Source: a virus. From it: 24,032 nucleotides of DNA. The notes below the pieces were generated by a model. That model ran no database searches. It had not been told where the DNA came from and saw nothing but the letters and a program-made list of their open reading frames with translations. A program made the translations under genes and the position numbers. Position 1 is the first letter of the stretch; every line of letters starts with the position of its first letter. Location: the IMG/VR virus record IMGVR_UViG_3300007540_000104, positions 1-24,032 of that record. The stretch is one strand, 5' to 3'. Of the stretch, positions 10,947 to 21,678 are shown piece after piece.

Positions 10947-11648
10947 TTACTCCTGTAAATTTATGCTCTCAATCGAAAGCGGTTTTTCCCACATGGTTTT
11001 ATCAGATATCATTCTGTATCTACCACCTAGTAACTGGTAATTCTGTAAATTAATTGAAGGGTCTGAATAATTTAATATTTCGTTATAGTCTAATATGCTA
11101 TACCTAACTATATTCTTAGGTTTAATTACACCCTTATGACAACAGTTGCCAAGTCCGAATAAGCTTGTCTGATAATCGTCTTTGTAATCTAATAAATTTT
11201 GTTTGAAATAAATAGTTCTTTCTTGCATCGTAGTTTTTTCAACAGCATCTTTCCATTGTGGTGCTATCCTGTGATACTGCTCTAAAAAATCCTCATCAGG
11301 ATATAATCTCTTAGTATCAACTATCACTTCTAATACAACTGGTTCATCCTTTTCAGAATCACAATTCTTTTCGTTATAAGCATTTACTGATTGTTGTGCG
11401 AAATAAACTGGATAAGCATCAGACAAGTAAACCATAAGCGGATGACTTGGATTGCCACTCCAATTTCCAATACCTTTGTTATGTCTTGGGGTTATACCTT
11501 TTGATAGAATATCATCTAGGTATTTAGTAGAAGTGCCATGATATAAAGTTACCTTACCTTTGCTATAATCTTTAGGTGGGTACTTCAGTTCTTCTTCTCT
11601 CTGTAAGGCTTGTCTATCTGCCAATTCTTGTAACTCATTCATATTCAT
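10947..11648 (-). CDS. ADP-ribosyltransferase-like protein, 233 aa
   Basis: The signature is L-Y36-H37-G-T-S near the N-terminus followed by D-D-I-L-S-K-G-I-T-P, then V-Y74-L-S-D and an alanine-containing helix, and V-V-L-E107-V-I-V-D. This order matches the H-Y-E layout of ADP-ribosyltransferase folds (DarT, KptA and PARP-like families), so transfer of ADP-ribose from NAD to a host macromolecule is the best hypothesis. Chemistry and target are unknown; a KptA-like RNA 2'-phosphotransferase is an alternative. The start is ATG 11648 with GGAG 5 nt upstream. As first gene of the minus run, behind a divergent intergenic region with a palindrome, it should be among the first expressed, which suits host takeover. 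Confidence 0.6.
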   Translation of the reverse strand: MNMNELQELADRQALQREEELKYPPKDYSKGKVTLYHGTSTKYLDDILSKGITPRHNKGIGNWSGNPSHPLMVYLSDAYPVYFAQQSVNAYNEKNCDSEKDEPVVLEVIVDTKRLYPDEDFLEQYHRIAPQWKDAVEKTTMQERTIYFKQNLLDYKDDYQTSLFGLGNCCHKGVIKPKNIVRYSILDYNEILNYSDPSINLQNYQLLGGRYRMISDKTMWEKPLSIESINLQE

Positions 11649-11693
11649 ATTTGCTCCAACATTTATGATGTCTAAATGAAGTTTACTTGATGT

Positions 11694-11709
11694 CTTGCAA
11701 ATGTGCAAG
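11694..11709. promoter_or_regulatory. Palindrome in the divergent promoter region
   Basis: Perfect 6 bp arms CTTGCA / TGCAAG are separated by AATG. The palindrome lies between the divergent starts at 11648 (minus) and 11730 (plus), so it could be an operator controlling both. I could not assign confident -35/-10 boxes on either strand. A similar ATTGCA / TGCAAT palindrome lies at 15477-15491. Confidence 0.45.
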
Positions 11710-15698: not shown

Positions 15699-15737
15699 AA
15701 AAAAAAAGGCGAACACCACCTAAGTAGTATTCGCCTT
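15699..15737 (-). terminator. Rho-independent terminator ending the leftward operon
   Basis: The stem AAGGCGAA (15706-15713) with TTCGCCTT (15730-15737) is followed on the minus strand by a run of nine T. It lies 13 bp after the stop of the 53-residue gene and is the expected end of the long leftward operon. Confidence 0.85.
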
Positions 15738-15749
15738 AATTTATTTTAG

Positions 15750-15911
15750 CTATATCTTTACTGGTTTCCCATTAGGATATTTGATTGCTTGCGATAATCT
15801 ATACCAATCACTAGGACTAAGTATTTCTTTTAACTCAAATACATTTGTACTCTCATCAACATCATACTTAACTTTGATTTCAGCAAAGATTTCTTGCCAA
15901 TACCTTTTCAT
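15750..15911 (-). CDS. Small hypothetical protein, 53 aa
   Basis: It starts at ATG 15911, with GGAGG 7 nt upstream and an ATGA overlap with the previous stop; it ends at TAG 15750-15752, just before a strong terminator. It opens M-K-R-Y-W-Q-E-I-F-A and includes S-P-S-D-W-Y-R-L-S. Last gene of the leftward operon. No family recognised. Confidence 0.75.
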   Translation of the reverse strand: MKRYWQEIFAEIKVKYDVDESTNVFELKEILSPSDWYRLSQAIKYPNGKPVKI

Positions 15912-16126
15912 GATTGCACCTCCTTATTGATAATTGAATGAATCAAATCCATAACATCCAATCTTATCTCCGCACATTTCATAAAACTGGAATCTTCAAC
16001 CCCAGTATATTTATCTACAAGACTCTCAATATCTTCTGTTAGACAAGCGAACCCTTCTGAATTAAGGGTAAGTTTCTCATCAACATTACCCTCCTCATCA
16101 ATGTAATTATCAAAATAAATACTCAT
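15908..16126 (-). CDS. Small acidic protein, 72 aa
   Basis: ATG 16126 follows GGAGG by 7 nt and overlaps the upstream gene's TGA by 4 nt. The protein begins M-S-I-Y-F-D-N-Y-I-D-E-E-G and is acidic, with a helical C-terminus (D-V-M-D-L-I-H-S-I-I). Unrecognised; one of five tiny genes in a row with ATGA couplings. Confidence 0.7.
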   Translation of the reverse strand: MSIYFDNYIDEEGNVDEKLTLNSEGFACLTEDIESLVDKYTGVEDSSFMKCAEIRLDVMDLIHSIINKEVQS

Positions 16127-16263
16127 GATAGTTCCTCCTCATCAATAAAGAATTTGACATGAACAAATCCTCCACTCATAGATGATATTGAATATCTATA
16201 ATCGCAAGTTTCTAACCAAGCGATAAAAGATTTTAAATGCTTCGTCTGAATACTGGCACTCAT
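16123..16263 (-). CDS. Small hypothetical protein, 46 aa
   Basis: It runs from ATG 16263, behind a GGAGG ribosome site, to TGA 16123-16125, overlapping both neighbours by 4 nt (ATGA). The sequence has F-I-A-W-L-E-T-C-D-Y near residue 13 and G-G-F-V-H-V-K-F-F-I near 31, suggesting a small alpha/beta protein. No family recognised. Confidence 0.7.
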   Translation of the reverse strand: MSASIQTKHLKSFIAWLETCDYRYSISSMSGGFVHVKFFIDEEELS

Positions 16264-16505
16264 GATTTAACCTCCTCAACATCTCCGCTATCTACTTCCA
16301 TTTGACTATCATCGCCAAAGTCAGAGTATTTAAAAGTTGATGTAATACCACCTTCTTTTACACAATCCCCCTCTTTTAAAATATTAGGCAAACAAACCGC
16401 ATCTAAAATTTCACTTTCAGTTAGCTTTTTGTCAGACACAATTTCAAAGTATCTCACATCAGTAGATTGCTCACTTACCTCGTAAGCATATTTTTTTTTA
16501 TTCAT
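16260..16505 (-). CDS. Small hypothetical protein, 81 aa
   Basis: ATG 16505 lies in an ATGA overlap with the upstream stop; GAGG is present upstream. It starts M-N-K-K-K-Y-A-Y-E-V and has an acidic C-terminal half (D-S-G-D-V-E-E-V). The K-L-T-E-S-E-I-L-D-A segment near residue 27 is helical. Function unknown. Confidence 0.68.
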   Translation of the reverse strand: MNKKKYAYEVSEQSTDVRYFEIVSDKKLTESEILDAVCLPNILKEGDCVKEGGITSTFKYSDFGDDSQMEVDSGDVEEVKS

Positions 16506-16774
16506 GATTGAACCTCGCTATTCAAATAAAAATTTACTCTCTCTTTGTTATCATTATTTTCATTAGTTTCGATATATTTTTTAATCAAAATATCTACTTC
16601 TTTTTTAATGATTGATAACATAAAAGGCATTTCATCATTTGGGTCAGTAGGAAAAAAAACATCTACTCCGCTATTAGATTTTAATTTGACTAGCAAATCA
16701 TAAACCTCGCATAGAGCATCCATTTGATTTTCGTTTATAGGCTCATCCCATTTTTTTATAGTTAATTTATCCAT
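16502..16774 (-). CDS. Hypothetical protein, 90 aa, downstream of hammerhead D
   Basis: The start is ATG 16774, preceded by GGAGGG. The frame remains open upstream to 16948, but that would place the hammerhead at 16808-16865 inside the coding region and lacks a ribosome site. The protein begins M-D-K-L-T-I-K-K-W-D and has a helical C-terminus. After self-cleavage the mRNA for this gene and the four small genes below it would start at 16857 with a hairpin. Confidence 0.68.
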   Translation of the reverse strand: MDKLTIKKWDEPINENQMDALCEVYDLLVKLKSNSGVDVFFPTDPNDEMPFMLSIIKKEVDILIKKYIETNENNDNKERVNFYLNSEVQS

Positions 16775-16807: not shown

Positions 16808-16865
16808 TTTCTGTTTCGACTCTTTTGAGTCATCATCAGGGAAAATACACATTTTCCGACAGAAA
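16808..16865 (-). ncRNA. Hammerhead ribozyme D (open stem III)
   Basis: On the minus strand: stem III 5' strand TTTCTGT, cleavage nucleotide C (position 16858), stem I GGAAAAT / ATTTTCC with loop GTGT, core CTGATGA (16839-16833), one extra T, stem II GACTC / GAGTC with loop AAAA, then GAA and stem III 3' strand ACAGAAA. All conserved hammerhead core bases are present and the cleavage triplet is GUC, cut between 16858 and 16857. An extra residue between the core A9 and helix II is known from some natural hammerheads. It lies between the VWA gene and the 90-residue gene. Confidence 0.87.
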
Positions 16866-16965
16866 AGTAGAAATTCGACCTCGTAGGAGAGCCATAGAGA
16901 GCAAATCAGGGAGCAAGTGATATCAGGGCATACCCTAAAATCACTCACTCTCCAATCGCTTCTAC

Positions 16966-18348
16966 TTAATAGAAATCAGCAGTATCAACATAAACAACTT
17001 CGCCAAAGGCTAGTTTTTCTGAATAACTGCTTTTTTCCGTTACACACCAAAAGACAGGAACATCAGGCTCAACATCAGGGTCAACAATTCCCCACCCATC
17101 CGTGAAATAGATAAAGGCTTGCACCTCGTCTACATCATCAGAAAAGTCATTGAACAGATTGAACGGAGGGTCAAATTCCGTTCCACCACCACCACGGACT
17201 TGAAGCTTCAAATCATCGCCTTGGTCTAACTCGTAGATATCCCACCACTCGCCTTGACTGTTTTTGATAACAGTATCATCGCAGTAGCAAACTCGAATCT
17301 TATCAAGACCGCACGCTTCAGCTATCGCTTGTATTTCCGTTGCGAACATATTGAGTTCGTATTGGGAAACACTTCCGCTAGTATCAATCGCAATAGCTAA
17401 CTCGCCACCTTGCGGAGACTTTGCTTTGCTAGGCAAATTGATTCCTCGATGTTGATGCCTTCTATTGAGTCTCGCCCATGAGTTCTCATCACAAAAAGCA
17501 GATTGTAGAAAATCTAAAAGCAAATCCTTCCAATCGACTTGCACATCTTTTAGTTCTTCAATCCTATTTCTCATTCCACTTGAACCGCTACCCATTGCAA
17601 TTTCTAGCTTGTCAGCTAAAGAAACCGCTCGTTGAATCTCGCCTTTCAGTTCTTGCATCTCTGCATCATTCATAGGCTTGCCTTCTTCGTTGGTAGCATC
17701 CCAAACTTCGCCAATAGCAGACGGAATGTTATCCCAATCAGAACCAGTCGAACCTTGCTCAGATTCTCCAGTCTCATCTTCAGAAATATTTCCTTGACTA
17801 GTCTCAGAAATTTCTCCGTCTTGCTCCTCGTCAGATTCTTCAGAACCGCCTTGACTTTGAGCATCTTGTTCTTGCTCATCATCTTCTCCATTAGGCTTGT
17901 TCTGATTTTGTATCTGTTCGATAGCTTCTTGCATTGCTTCCTCGTCATTTACCAAAATCTGATAAACCTTTTCAGCAGTCATGCCCTTGTATTTATGGTC
18001 AAGTAAACCACCCATAGGCAGTTGTAAATGTAAATCCCAATACAAGTAAGCATTGATGACATAATCGCACGCGATATTCCAAACTTTAGGATGACGATTG
18101 CCACGCCTTAAAGGATGTTCATATACGACATGCAACGCTTCATGAACGAGAACGCCTTGCAGTTCTTCCTCCGTGCAACCCATAACAAATTCAGGATAGA
18201 AATAAATATTTTTTCCGTCAGTTGCCATAGTGTCGCACTTGGATTTTTCAGTCTCGATTAAATCAAGATGTAGGAGCATGCTCGCCATTCCCACATTGCC
18301 TTTCATTAACTTCGACCTTGCCTTCACAATTGTTTCTAAACTAGTCAT
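16966..18348 (-). CDS. Putative metallopeptidase (DUF2201-like) fused to a VWA domain, 460 aa
   Basis: The N-terminal domain has H69-E-A-L-H73 and a following A-C-D95-Y-V-I-N, as in DUF2201 putative metallopeptidases. An acidic, glutamine-rich linker (about 145-205) leads to a VWA domain whose metal-ion site is complete: D322-T-S-G-S326, G-G-G-G-T390 and T-D417-G. VWA proteins of this kind work with MoxR ATPases, which remodel a target while the VWA part binds substrate through the metal. The start is ATG 18348 behind GGAGG; a 5-codon longer frame begins inside that ribosome site. It overlaps the DUF3150-like gene by 8 nt, and the MoxR gene lies upstream. Phage homologues are sometimes labelled CobT-like; cobalt chelation is unlikely here. 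Confidence 0.85.
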   Translation of the reverse strand: MTSLETIVKARSKLMKGNVGMASMLLHLDLIETEKSKCDTMATDGKNIYFYPEFVMGCTEEELQGVLVHEALHVVYEHPLRRGNRHPKVWNIACDYVINAYLYWDLHLQLPMGGLLDHKYKGMTAEKVYQILVNDEEAMQEAIEQIQNQNKPNGEDDEQEQDAQSQGGSEESDEEQDGEISETSQGNISEDETGESEQGSTGSDWDNIPSAIGEVWDATNEEGKPMNDAEMQELKGEIQRAVSLADKLEIAMGSGSSGMRNRIEELKDVQVDWKDLLLDFLQSAFCDENSWARLNRRHQHRGINLPSKAKSPQGGELAIAIDTSGSVSQYELNMFATEIQAIAEACGLDKIRVCYCDDTVIKNSQGEWWDIYELDQGDDLKLQVRGGGGTEFDPPFNLFNDFSDDVDEVQAFIYFTDGWGIVDPDVEPDVPVFWCVTEKSSYSEKLAFGEVVYVDTADFY

Positions 18349-19321
18349 GTTTCTTACCTCCATAAATCTTACCTAAAAGACCTCCTTTAAGTGAAGAAAC
18401 AGATTGTTCTAATTGCTCTGCTACTTTGTCTCGTTTCTGTTGACCCATTTCTGAATCATCTCGCAACTGTTCGACAGAATTGATTGAAGCAAAAACGCTA
18501 CAAAGTTTTTGATGAGCATCAGAGATATGCGAATCGTTTCCTAAAATATCCTCATTGATAGAGGGCAACACTTCGATTGCTTGCTTCAGCTTGTCGAAAC
18601 TCGACACATTGAAGAAACCGCCTTTTTGTTTATTTTCAGGGTCATATTCTTTTAGCTTCGTAGCTAAATGATTCACTTGCTCCAACAAAGCATCAACAGT
18701 TGTCTTAAAGACATTCTTGATATTGTTGTTGGCTCTGTTTACTGCATCAGATTCTATCCTTGCTCTTAGCTTTTCAGACACATTTAATCTTATGTCATGG
18801 CTAAAAGAAGGAACGACAGATATTTCAAATTGAAAAATAAATTTTCTTCTCAATTCGTCAAAGTCAGGATAATCGTTTTCGTCAAACGCATCTCCAAGAT
18901 TTCTTTTTGCTTGCTCCATTTGTTTTGGATAGGCTCTAAGAAATCCTTCAACCTCTCGCTCCCAAACTTGCTTCGAGATATCAACATGACTCTGAAGCTT
19001 TTCAAGATTAGAGTTAGGGCATAATCGCCAACCGCTCACAGTCTTACCAGTATCATAGTCTGTTGAATTATCATCCCAAGGCAAAGTCAAAGGATAGTAA
19101 AAATCATTCCTAAACCCATTTAAGATAGAGCGGAACTCTTTGTTCACATCTCTACCAAATATATGTTTAGAAACACCCAGTAATCTCTCGTCTGATACTT
19201 TCGTATCAACCGCTAGATTTCTCTTTAATCTCTTATCAGTTTTGATACCGCTAGGATGTTTCGCAGTCATGCGAACCAGTACGGCATTTTCCGACAGAGT
19301 ATTAGTTAATTTTTTATCCAT
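18341..19321 (-). CDS. DUF3150-like protein, 326 aa
   Basis: The start is ATG 19321 in the leader ATGGAGGTTATTATG, where GGAGG is the ribosome site and the first ATG is not used. The protein shows F-Y-Y-P-L-T-L-P-W near residues 74-82, G-W-R-L-C-P near 97, and a long helical middle with F-D-E-N-D-Y-P-D-F-D-E-L. This matches the DUF3150 pattern as I remember it, a family often found beside MoxR and VWA genes in phages and bacteria. It is probably the third component linking the ATPase and the VWA protein. Its mRNA would begin 82 nt upstream at the hammerhead C cut. An 8 nt overlap couples it to the VWA gene. Confidence 0.7.
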   Translation of the reverse strand: MDKKLTNTLSENAVLVRMTAKHPSGIKTDKRLKRNLAVDTKVSDERLLGVSKHIFGRDVNKEFRSILNGFRNDFYYPLTLPWDDNSTDYDTGKTVSGWRLCPNSNLEKLQSHVDISKQVWEREVEGFLRAYPKQMEQAKRNLGDAFDENDYPDFDELRRKFIFQFEISVVPSFSHDIRLNVSEKLRARIESDAVNRANNNIKNVFKTTVDALLEQVNHLATKLKEYDPENKQKGGFFNVSSFDKLKQAIEVLPSINEDILGNDSHISDAHQKLCSVFASINSVEQLRDDSEMGQQKRDKVAEQLEQSVSSLKGGLLGKIYGGKKHD

Positions 19322-19352
19322 AATAACCTCCATTATTTTTAGTTAGATAAAA

Positions 19353-19412
19353 GTTTCTGTTTCGATTCTTTTGAATCATCATCAGGAGAGATACACATCT
19401 CTCGACAGAAAC
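19353..19412 (-). ncRNA. Hammerhead ribozyme C (open stem III)
   Basis: On the minus strand: GTTTCTGT then C17 (19404), stem I GAGAGAT / ATCTCTC with loop GTGT, core CTGATGA (19385-19379), one extra T, stem II GATTC / GAATC with loop AAAA, then GAA and ACAGAAAC closing an 8 bp stem III. Cleavage is predicted between 19404 and 19403. Compared with ribozyme D, stem II changes from a C-G to a T-A pair and stem I changes at several paired positions, all compensated. It lies between the MoxR and DUF3150-like genes, with a dispersed motif copy 8 nt upstream. Confidence 0.88.
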
Positions 19413-19420
19413 GAGCAGAA

Positions 19421-19448
19421 AAAATATTTAACTGGTAAATAATATTTT
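19421..19448. repeat. Dispersed ACYRGT motif, copy 11, two-sided
   Basis: Both arms are present around ACTGGT: AAAATATTTA on the left and AAATAATATTTT on the right, an almost complete palindrome. It lies 8 nt upstream of hammerhead C on the minus strand. Confidence 0.75.
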
Positions 19449-19471
19449 CCACTCGTGTTAGTCAGAATTTT

Positions 19472-20521
19472 TTAGACTTCTAAGTCTTGGTTTTCTACTT
19501 TGAATTGAGCATAAGTAGAAGTGTCGACAATATCAGGTCTTGCTCCAATCAAAGACCTCACAAAGAATATTCCAAATTCAGGTGTTGGAAATTTCTTGAT
19601 GTAAGCAACGCTATTCTCGAACCAGTCAGTAATATCAGAATTACTAGCTTCTTTAAGAACAGTTACCAAAGCACAAACAGTAGCGTACATAAGACCACCG
19701 CTATCAGGTACTTCAACATCCTTGCCTTCAACAATATCTTCTAGGTCAGGAACATCATTTTTCAATGATAGAAATGACATAAATTCTATTGCTGGAGTCT
19801 CCCCAATATCGCCCTCACAAATCAACTGAATAATTTCTTCAGGTGGATTCGTTTTCAGGGTATCGCTCAACCTTGTCCATGCTCTTGGACTTGGTTGCGG
19901 ACTCGTTACTTTGCTATCAAAGACATTTAAGTATTCAGGTTGAAAACTTATATATCCCAATACATCAGGGTGAACATCATTCTTAGTAGCCCATGCTAAC
20001 CAATCATTCGTATCATGCTCGAAGTTAATCATTGTGCAACGACCAACGACATGAGAAGGGAGTTTATTAGACCCCGCTCTATCCGTTGCTCTGTTACCCG
20101 CACAAATAACTTTCCACCCTTTAGGTAAGACATAATCGCCAATCTTACCCTCGTACAATAATTGCCCACAAATAGCTTGAATCGAATTGTGTGCTTGGGC
20201 ATATTCGTCAAAGAATAAAACACCCTCGCCACCAATAGGGAGATTCCCTAGGAACGCTCTCTTTTGTTGATTCTCATCATCTATATATGGCAAACCGCCA
20301 AGGTCAACAGACTCGTATAACGACAGCCTAAAATCAATAAATCCAAACTGCTTTGCAGTAGGATTAATCTCATCGACTAAGACCTCTCGACCTTCGCTCA
20401 CGCTATCCACATAAGACCTAACAATTGCACTTTTTCCAATACCAGTTCCCCCTAAGAGAAACGGAGTATTAGACCCTTTTAATACTGATTTCATCATCAG
20501 TAATGCTTGACTTGGTTTCAT
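19472..20521 (-). CDS. MoxR-family AAA+ ATPase, 349 aa
   Basis: Walker A is G-G-T-G-I-G-K-S (residues 24-31), Walker B V-L-F-F-D-E (101-106), and the sensor-1 asparagine lies in C-A-G-N143-R-A-T-D; a later S-P-R-A-W-T-R fits the sensor-2 region. MoxR ATPases form ring hexamers that act with VWA proteins to activate or remodel targets. The partner genes lie directly downstream. The start is ATG 20521 in the leader ATGGAGGTTATTATG; a longer frame to 20587 would run through the ribozyme B cleavage site and is rejected. The mRNA 5' end made by ribozyme B would lie 60 nt upstream. Phage versions are sometimes annotated CobS. Confidence 0.88.
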   Translation of the reverse strand: MKPSQALLMMKSVLKGSNTPFLLGGTGIGKSAIVRSYVDSVSEGREVLVDEINPTAKQFGFIDFRLSLYESVDLGGLPYIDDENQQKRAFLGNLPIGGEGVLFFDEYAQAHNSIQAICGQLLYEGKIGDYVLPKGWKVICAGNRATDRAGSNKLPSHVVGRCTMINFEHDTNDWLAWATKNDVHPDVLGYISFQPEYLNVFDSKVTSPQPSPRAWTRLSDTLKTNPPEEIIQLICEGDIGETPAIEFMSFLSLKNDVPDLEDIVEGKDVEVPDSGGLMYATVCALVTVLKEASNSDITDWFENSVAYIKKFPTPEFGIFFVRSLIGARPDIVDTSTYAQFKVENQDLEV

Positions 20522-20576
20522 AATAACCTCCATAGTTAATTTCCAAGTTAGTAAAAAGCTAGCAGAAATGCTAGCC

Positions 20577-20645
20577 ACCAAGACCAACCAATAAATATTA
20601 TTTACTGGTTAGTTTCGATTGAATTTCACAATCTCATCAGTTGGT
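20577..20645 (-). ncRNA. Hammerhead ribozyme B (open stem I)
   Basis: On the minus strand, starting on the base after the upstream TAA: ACCAA (stem I), core CTGATGA (20640-20634), stem II GATTG / CAATC with loop TGAAATT, GAA, then stem III from 20613 (ACTAACCAGTAAAT) pairing with ATTTATTGGTTGGT around an AAT loop (two G-U pairs), cleavage nucleotide C at 20582, and TTGGT completing stem I. Cleavage is predicted between 20582 and 20581. Just downstream a GCTAGC / GCTAGC hairpin (20575-20558) would sit near the new 5' end. Part of stem III is a copy of the dispersed motif. Confidence 0.92.
20593..20609 (-). repeat. Dispersed ACYRGT motif, copy 12
   Basis: On the minus strand ACCAGTAAATAATATTT; it forms the distal part of stem III of hammerhead B. 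Confidence 0.75.
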
Positions 20646-20972
20646 TTAGTATCCGCTCATTTGGTCATGGATAGATACCGCTCCATAAAAATCATATCCA
20701 ACCAATTCTCTAATAGTTTCGTTGAATCTTGAATCAGTAGCAGAACCAAAGTTTCCACTAGCATGATAAAAAGTACCCTCATTAGATTCTTGAATTGGTT
20801 TCAAGATAATCAAATTACTACCGCAAGGAGCATGACAAAATAACTCATATTCAGGCAAGTTATCTTTATTCTCACACCACTCCATACCTTTAACATTAGT
20901 CACAAATATCTCATCATATCCGTGGCTTCTTTGTGTACTTACATCGTGACCTTTTAATATTTCAATTCTCAT
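20646..20972 (-). CDS. Hypothetical protein, 108 aa, flanked by hammerheads A and B
   Basis: ATG 20972 is preceded by GGAGG in the leader ATGGAGGATTATTATG. The protein opens M-R-I-E-I-L-K-G-H, has a C-H-A-P-C-G-S segment near residue 47, and ends with Y-D-F-Y-G-A-V-S-I-H-D-Q. No family recognised. Its mRNA would be cut 50 nt before the start by ribozyme A and directly after the stop by ribozyme B, releasing a nearly monocistronic transcript. Confidence 0.72.
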   Translation of the reverse strand: MRIEILKGHDVSTQRSHGYDEIFVTNVKGMEWCENKDNLPEYELFCHAPCGSNLIILKPIQESNEGTFYHASGNFGSATDSRFNETIRELVGYDFYGAVSIHDQMSGY

Positions 20973-21017
20973 AATAATCCTCCATAGATTAAGTTTTGAG
21001 TCAGCTTAATTGCTAAC

Positions 21018-21077
21018 ACCAAGACTGGATAATTACTTACCCAGTTTCGCCTAAATCTCATAGGCTCATCAGTTGGT
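21018..21077 (-). ncRNA. Hammerhead ribozyme A (open stem I)
   Basis: On the minus strand, directly after the TAA of the 77-residue gene: ACCAA, core CTGATGA (21072-21066), stem II GCCTA / TAGGC with loop TGAGATT, GAA, stem III ACTGGGTAA / TTATCCAGT capped by a GTAA (GNRA) tetraloop, cleavage nucleotide C at 21023, then TTGGT. Cleavage is predicted between 21023 and 21022. Stems II and III differ completely from ribozyme B yet still pair, while the core, stem I and loop II are kept. A GTTAGC / GCTGAC hairpin (21017-21000) follows at the new 5' end. Confidence 0.93.
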
Positions 21078-21311
21078 TTAATACTCGAATCCTATTTGCA
21101 CAACTACGCTACCCTTTTTAAAGGTTTCAGCATTAATGTTTTCAGCTTTAGTTACTCGATACTTCCCAAGGCTTCGCTCATAATCTTCACGAATATAAAC
21201 ACCACCATTCTCGCTAAGTCTAAAGAAGTCTCCCTCTTTAACATCAGATAATGTTTTAAGTTCCCAAGTATCTCGTGCATTAATTTCAAATACAGGTTGT
21301 TCTATTTTCAT
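21078..21311 (-). CDS. Small conserved-looking protein, 77 aa
   Basis: The start is ATG 21311 in the leader ATGGAGGATTATATG; an upstream in-frame extension to 21362 is ignored because it crosses this ribosome site. The protein has V-K-E-G-D-F-F-R-L near residue 25, G-G-V-Y-I-R-E-D-Y near 35 and ends V-V-V-Q-I-G-F-E-Y, giving a small beta-barrel-like pattern seen in unnamed phage proteins. Hammerhead A begins on the base after its stop codon. Confidence 0.72.
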   Translation of the reverse strand: MKIEQPVFEINARDTWELKTLSDVKEGDFFRLSENGGVYIREDYERSLGKYRVTKAENINAETFKKGSVVVQIGFEY

Positions 21312-21370
21312 ATAATCCTCCATGGATTGTAGTTTCTTGAACCCCATAATTAGGATTCTCATTCAGCATG

Positions 21371-21678
21371 TTAATTCATGGACTGCGGAGGACAGTCTCT
21401 ATCTTCTTCGAGTTTCGCTTTACGCCTCGCCTGTATGTTAAGAAAATCTACAGGGTCATCAGGTGCGGATTTTGTGAGTTAAAGAGGTAGTGCTTCGACC
21501 TCCTCCCCAGTCTACTCTCACCACTAAACCAATCGTCTAACCTAGTAATGAGCCAAGGGCTGTTGTTTATGTCTGTTCGATAAATTGTCCTGTATTCGTT
21601 GTCATGTCCATATGATACTAAAAGACACACCATAATACAAATCAGTACACATCTTATAAGCAAGCATAATGAGAGCAT
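21371..21678 (-). pseudogene. Small membrane protein gene, possibly frameshifted
   Basis: An intact frame runs from ATG 21678 to TAG 21448 (76 residues): a hydrophobic N-terminal segment (L-I-R-C-V-L-I-C-I-M-V-C-L-L-V) and then a polar part with W-F-S-G-E-S-R-L-G-R-R-S-K-H. The minus-one frame is open from 21478 to TAA 21371-21373, lacks a start, and encodes a protein-like P-D-D-P-V-D-F-L-N-I-Q-A-R-R-K-A-K-L segment. A shift between 21478 and 21450 would join them into one roughly 100-residue protein. This could be programmed frameshifting, a mutation or a sequence error; or the 76-residue form may be the true gene. No strong ribosome site precedes the ATG. Confidence 0.4.

Follow-up and report, generated by a model that had tools for sequence, protein, structure and literature searches.

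We analysed a 24,032-base virus record (IMG/VR record IMGVR_UViG_3300007540_000104, positions 1 to 24,032; the whole stretch is called the window here) and found that a single minus-strand operon in it, which begins near 21.4 kb and ends at an intrinsic terminator (15737-15706), carries four hammerhead ribozyme sequences (HH1 to HH4) between its genes and a fifth, hammerhead-like element (HH0) before the first of them. Judged by sequence comparison, this five-element array is very probably a self-processing punctuation of one polycistronic transcript in a marine phage. A hammerhead is found at every gapped junction of the operon and at none of the five junctions where genes overlap. The initial annotation had proposed that hammerheads punctuate this one operon, which includes genes for a MoxR-type ATPase, a DUF3150-family protein and a VWA-like protein; the proposal holds across relatives of the phage, and the arrangement recurs in other phages.

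A three-stem descriptor applied to both strands of the window returned exactly four sites, each of them on the minus strand and with a cut already predicted from the sequence (Table 1); shuffled windows gave 0.03 matches on average. All four have the CUGAUGA and GAAA core segments and the GUC cleavage triplet of a hammerhead, and their minimum-energy folds adopt the three-stem form. The first base of HH1 and HH2 is the base right after the stop codon of the upstream gene (TAA for HH1), and HH3 and HH4 have a single additional U between A9 and stem II. Two covariance models were trained solely on relatives outside the window's clade, from length-matched subsets. They scored the four elements at 67-87 bits, with E-values from 1e-15 to 1e-26 that are rough because the calibration was shortened. 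The rest of the window gave a single further match (10.5 bits, E 0.6), which is not convincing. Taken together, these comparisons show HH1 to HH4 to be bona fide hammerhead sequences, two of type I and two of type III.

The overlapping junctions of the window comprise one of 8 nt, between the DUF3150 and VWA genes, and four 4-nt ATGA overlaps in the run of small genes at the end of the operon. The DUF3150/VWA pair had been taken as the only junction without a ribozyme; this needs correction, as the four ATGA junctions likewise have none. The expectation for the overlapping DUF3150/VWA pair stands up to comparison: in distant relatives in which the DUF3150 and VWA genes do not overlap (L062, L085, L109, L114, L119 and L121), a hammerhead lies between them. 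For a wider census we used 45 loci from viral metagenomes, recovered with the VWA protein as query, and assigned junctions with a simple gene caller and a strict descriptor. The descriptor matched at 119 of 138 gapped junctions and at none of 39 tight junctions. About half of the 19 gapped exceptions are visible hammerhead variants and several are gene-calling errors; the gap before MoxR in L036-L039 is the only exception clearly without a hammerhead. Phages without detectable relatives of the MoxR, DUF3150 and VWA proteins (nine contigs) gave 22 matches at 29 gapped junctions and none at 21 tight ones. One of them, L159, carries ten hammerheads on its reverse strand (about 4.5-11.7 kb), nine of type I and one of type III, which separate blocks of tightly packed small genes. 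Others in this set have four (L084) or two each (L056, L082). The sequences thus strongly support a strict placement rule, with ribozymes at gapped junctions and none at coupled ones, that recurs in different phages. Such a recurrent rule makes simple predictions for RNA-end mapping. The proposal of the initial annotation that the ribozymes set the stoichiometry of an ATPase system gained no support here, and they also flank unrelated, interchangeable small genes.

Conservation was strong at individual junctions. All 153 descriptor matches across the 45 loci lie on the coding strand, and shuffles gave about one; these counts are not independent because many of the loci are near-identical. Antisense or chance hammerheads were discarded as an explanation, given the empty opposite strand. 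A hammerhead occupies the MoxR/DUF3150 junction, the position of HH3, in all 40 loci that have both genes. The junction after VWA, the position of HH4, has a strict descriptor match in 37 of 44 loci, and the non-matches comprise cut contigs (L005, L024), competing type I assignments (L010, L013) and a stem III mismatch (L027-L029). Compensatory changes were abundant, with up to six pair types per position among 73 distinct type III and 62 distinct type I sequences, although the descriptor itself selects paired sequences. Covariation was tallied by structural position because a MAFFT alignment misregistered variants with an 8-base-pair stem I. Furthermore, the two terminal loops of the type III elements co-occur: loop I of the form RUGUGU goes with loop II of the form RAAA (52 sequences, plus two misclassed), and a U-rich loop I goes with an AUUAA loop II (nine, plus one misclassed). 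This correlation suggests a tertiary contact between loops I and II, of the kind known to speed hammerheads. For the conserved loop II of type I (UGARAY) no contact partner was found; a kissing interaction with the loop of the downstream hairpin was considered and rejected, as it suits HH2 (AUUUC) and neither HH1 nor most relatives.

The matches are also restricted within genomes. In 17 whole contigs the strong matches are confined to this operon, and in a 57,385-base contig that has a repeated end and is apparently complete they all fall within one stretch. Four cultured phages (L130-L133), two of which are classified as Schitoviridae, have related MoxR and VWA genes but showed no hammerheads in the stretches read, and the open-licence literature yielded no report of hammerheads in Schitoviridae. 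The type I seed pattern also occurs in contigs of bacterial genomes (119 stretches reported); only one of the loci scanned passed the descriptor, so the seed alone is uninformative there.

Curated models see little of this family. With Rfam, HH1 and HH2 alone were detected in the window at E<=10, well under the gathering thresholds (RF00008, Hammerhead_3, 28.6 against 48.5 bits; RF03152, RAGATH-1, 29.2 and 27.1 against 56.3 bits); HH3 and HH4 were missed, and nine relatives (119 kb) gave no match. The elements share with RF00008 and RF03152 the CUGANGA and GAAA core, three covarying stems, an NUH triplet and, in type III, correlated loop I and loop II sequences; they differ in scoring below threshold, in the additional U after A9 (HH3, HH4) and in insertions of 28-40 nt in relatives. 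The missed thresholds are what could be cited for reading the four matches as chance or decayed, inactive hammerheads. We regard this as scarcely credible, since many pair types are conserved at the same junctions, the cores are intact, the loops are correlated, and models built outside the clade reach E-values down to 1e-26. Because Rfam thresholds miss every such ribozyme checked, hammerheads of this kind are probably under-annotated in viral metagenomes.

The element before the first gene, HH0, resembles type III. It consists of a hairpin (GACTG..CAGTC), stem I at 21380-21367 with the loop AAUUAA, a core segment CUGAAUGA at 21366-21359, stem II and AAGAAAC. Relatives were selected by the stem II sequence alone. 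In these 22 distinct sequences stem I is fully paired throughout, with varied pairs, and GUC is invariant (22 of 22); the second pair of stem III is A-U in 11 and U-A in 10. HH0 departs from the consensus core in two places: the window has CUGAAUGA, and in all 22 relatives stem II and GAAA are separated by AA. Stem III is short, mostly two to three pairs beyond A15.1-U16.1, and the strand that bears GUC can pair in the upstream hairpin instead. Neither Rfam nor the two covariance models gave a match to HH0. We call HH0 hammerhead-like, a label that covers no claim of activity.

If the array works as its sequence suggests, each hammerhead would cut itself while the operon is being transcribed. 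The upstream message would then end in a 2',3'-cyclic phosphate and the downstream one begin with a 5'-OH, and every gene or coupled block of genes would obtain its own mRNA. A hairpin would tend to sit near both new ends. At type I junctions the upstream message would keep the folded ribozyme as its 3' tail, and the downstream message would usually have a hairpin a few nt from its start; at type III junctions the ribozyme would form a hairpin at the 5' end of the downstream message, and the upstream one would usually carry a hairpin before it. Upon the predicted cleavage, stem I of HH3 would become a blunt 5'-terminal hairpin. The flanks were scored for hairpins: downstream of type I elements the mean z was -1.91, with 73% below -1 (random segments, -0.38 and 23%), and upstream of type III elements it was -2.23, with 75% below -1 (random segments, -0.64 and 28%). 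Bacterial RNAs that begin with a 5'-OH or a hairpin are degraded more slowly by RNase E/RppH-type decay. A likely benefit would be that each message has a defined leader and 5'-OH and hairpin ends that resist 5'-end-dependent decay, which would make expression independent of the identity of the upstream gene. Such independence would fit a locus with frequent gene exchange.

Several observations weigh against self-processing punctuation. Activity could be reduced by two departures from the consensus: the additional U behind A9 in HH3 and HH4, and, in HH0, the AA that precedes GAAA. A clear hairpin is missing from about a quarter of the flanks; for HH4 there is none within 75 nt. Plain hairpins stand in place of the pre-MoxR hammerhead in L036-L039, a natural loss. 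Internal promoters would also count against it; sigma-70-like matches were no commoner than in shuffles, in a scan that a phage promoter would escape.

The ends that successive hammerheads leave can be joined by RtcB or by Pnkp/Rnl-type ligases, an established chemistry, and the cleaved pieces might accordingly be religated into circular or spliced RNAs. This is very improbable, as the genes retain ordinary start, stop and Shine-Dalgarno signals, and such products were sought from tandem arrays by Perreault et al. and none were found (PMC3088659).

Near HH3 and HH2 we also noted a palindromic motif, TTWACYRGT, with 23 matches on both strands of the window against 2.3 expected, an enrichment of about ten times. 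It lies in the hairpin before HH3 (19431-19439) and in stem III of HH2 (20601-20609), and it occurs genome-wide in relatives. The motif is possibly an operator, a phage promoter or a protein-binding hairpin; a reading as a promoter beside HH3 was not adopted, since the motif is palindromic, occurs genome-wide on either strand and is not peculiar to the array.

In nine distinct type III relatives (from L009, L017, L019, L023, L026, L027, L034, L005 and L067), a two-hairpin domain of 28-40 nt is inserted between A9 and stem II. It consists of a hairpin of 3-4 base pairs with a GNRA loop, then directly a hairpin of 6-11 base pairs, and then stem II, and in nearly all carriers it sits at the position of HH3 or HH4. 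According to a 2023 study, known hammerhead alignments have no insertion of more than 1-2 nt at this point (PMC10085705). The domain, a new structure in the catalytic core, thus breaks a generalisation made for all known hammerheads. It could also point to regulated switches, in which a ligand, protein or ion would control cleavage and so toggle expression of the following gene. The alternative pairing of the HH0 cleavage-site strand, in the hairpin or in stem III, would suit this, and regulated cleavage has been raised for slow phage variants by Perreault et al. (PMC3088659). We nevertheless find regulation unlikely as the general explanation: HH1 to HH4 of the window lack the domain and resemble fast constitutive hammerheads with loop-loop contacts, and among close relatives the domain comes and goes at the same junction.

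We measured exchange breakpoints at the edges around the MoxR-VWA block by comparing close relatives pairwise. On the HH2 side, every pair except one near-identical pair loses homology at the ribozyme: 3-14 nt ahead of it, within it or just past it. On the HH4 side, homology often ends inside HH4 or within a few nt of it. L001 and L003, for example, are 99% identical and diverge from within HH4 onward. Families of small genes occur between different types of ribozyme; the 108-residue gene follows HH1 in the window and HH0 in L102. These data fit an exchange of gene cassettes at ribozyme edges. As breaks at gene borders are expected anyway, they do not establish a causal role for the ribozymes.

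In a more speculative reading, of rather low probability, the hammerheads would serve as interchangeable joints: small genes would travel flanked by partial ribozymes, and recombination through the conserved core would rebuild a working ribozyme. If this were so, a newcomer gene would be cut free at once as its own message while its neighbours stayed undisturbed, and the cassette joints would be an RNA-level counterpart of integron attachment sites. A doubtful but conceivable alternative is that the hammerheads are mainly recombination joints, whose near-identical core and stem repeats at each gene end allow cassette swaps by homologous recombination or annealing, with cleavage secondary or serving to keep the junctions harmless. 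The clustering of homology ends at the edges of HH2 and HH4, the divergence of L001 and L003 within HH4, the gene families found between differing ribozyme types (including the 108-residue gene behind HH1 or HH0) and a Sak-type single-strand annealing protein encoded by the phage all lend this some weight. Exchange normally breaks at gene borders, though, so that co-location is no proof of cause, and a mere patch of homology needs no covarying stems, correlated loops, strict strand bias or avoidance of overlaps. As a separate observation, a small gene of L084 (1523-1759) resembles by eye, in its N-terminal sequence, a gene of L036, L081 and L083. These are otherwise dissimilar phage groups, and the gene lies between hammerheads, as if a cassette had moved.

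The initial annotation had judged a hammerhead array within one operon to be unusual. In part it is not: clustered hammerheads that flank genes or short gene blocks in prophages were described by Perreault et al. in 2011 (PMC3088659), who proposed that they process long transcripts and found that tandem examples cleaved in vitro, and one set in E. coli (PMC3088659). The principle is therefore not new. Like those clusters, the present array consists of several hammerheads of mixed type that flank genes or gene blocks in phage DNA; it differs in having an explicit junction rule within one operon that applies across a group of phages, and the 2011 text states no such rule. As far as we searched, the open-licence literature has no precedent for the complete junction rule or for its recurrence in several groups of phages, nor for the insertion domain, HH0 or the apparent exchange of gene cassettes at ribozyme edges.

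Two single-element systems offer further comparisons. RiboJ, a hammerhead with a 23-nt hairpin, is a synthetic insulator that normalises 5' untranslated regions (PMC7536230) and approximately doubles the abundance of the transcript in E. coli (PMC6206723). Its order of hammerhead, hairpin and then ribosome-binding site is analogous to the type I junctions here; RiboJ is engineered and placed after a promoter, whereas the present elements lie between genes. The array suggests a natural counterpart of the ribozyme-plus-hairpin insulators of synthetic biology. In the haloviruses HF1 and HF2, the cut site of the hammerhead HHphage is no more than 3 nt away from a mapped 5' end (PMC3088659). HHphage is likewise a phage hammerhead closely upstream of a gene start, in that case of an early gene; it is a single element with a salt-related core variant and an archaeal host. 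The role of hammerheads in phages and bacteria has been termed an open question (PMC6155905).

The gene labels of the initial annotation largely stood (Table 1). The MoxR assignment was borne out. The DUF3150 assignment rests on homology, with PF11348 matched by four of eight relatives (best E 5.6e-7) and not by the window protein itself. The VWA label needs correction, since the protein has a DUF2201_N metallopeptidase-like domain in addition to its DUF2201 VWA-like domain. The VWA gene has an alternative earlier start at 18363. The family of the first small gene is present in six loci.

Table 1. Ribozymes, genes and other features of the operon, all on the minus strand of the window; all cuts are predicted positions, and E-values given with the covariance-model scores are rough
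Feature	Position	Strand	Details
HH0, hammerhead-like type III element before first gene	21332-21397	-	predicted cut after 21381
First small gene	21078-21311	-	77 residues from the start that bears a Shine-Dalgarno sequence; 94 residues if the earlier ATG is used
HH1, type I hammerhead	21018-21077	-	cut after 21023; descriptor, fold, type I covariance model 82.7 bits (E 3.5e-19)
108-residue gene	20646-20972	-	homologue in L102 directly behind HH0, not a type I hammerhead
HH2, type I hammerhead	20577-20645	-	cut after 20582; descriptor, fold, type I covariance model 67.4 bits (E 2.8e-15)
Hairpin GGCTAGC..GCTAGCT	20557-20576	-	six nt past the HH2 cut, where the MoxR message would begin; terminator-like by consensus
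MoxR-type AAA+ ATPase	19472-20521	-	phrog_1297, E 3e-70
Hairpin CGAG..CTCG	19412-19455	-	adjoins HH3; predicted cleavage would leave it close to the 3' end of the MoxR message; contains TTWACYRGT
HH3, type III hammerhead	19354-19411	-	cut after 19404; descriptor, fold, type III covariance model 80.4 bits (E 3e-24)
DUF3150-family gene	18341-19321	-	label by homology
DUF2201_N metallopeptidase-like and DUF2201 VWA-like gene	16966-18348	-	PF13203 1.1e-35, PF09967 1.5e-15; 8-nt overlap of its start with the end of the DUF3150 gene, without a ribozyme
HH4, type III hammerhead	16808-16865	-	cut after 16858; descriptor, fold, type III covariance model 87.1 bits (E 2e-26)
Run of five small genes	15750-16774	-	4-nt ATGA overlap at each junction; no hammerhead
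Intrinsic terminator, operon end	15706-15737	-	14 pairs, then a T run

Two minor features were noted besides. On the minus strand at 16798-16782, a Shine-Dalgarno sequence lies partly inside a small hairpin, TGTCCTACGGAGGGACA, and is likewise placed in relatives; in the relatives, many genes that follow HH0 or HH4 have a hairpin of this type, with altered pairs, in front of them. Elsewhere in the window, a 253-residue protein (10947-11708, minus strand) shows weak similarity to PARP (PF00644, E 4.5e-4) and to RNA 2'-phosphotransferase (PF01885, E 0.035), both matches being below the cut-off, and is a possible ADP-ribosyltransferase candidate.

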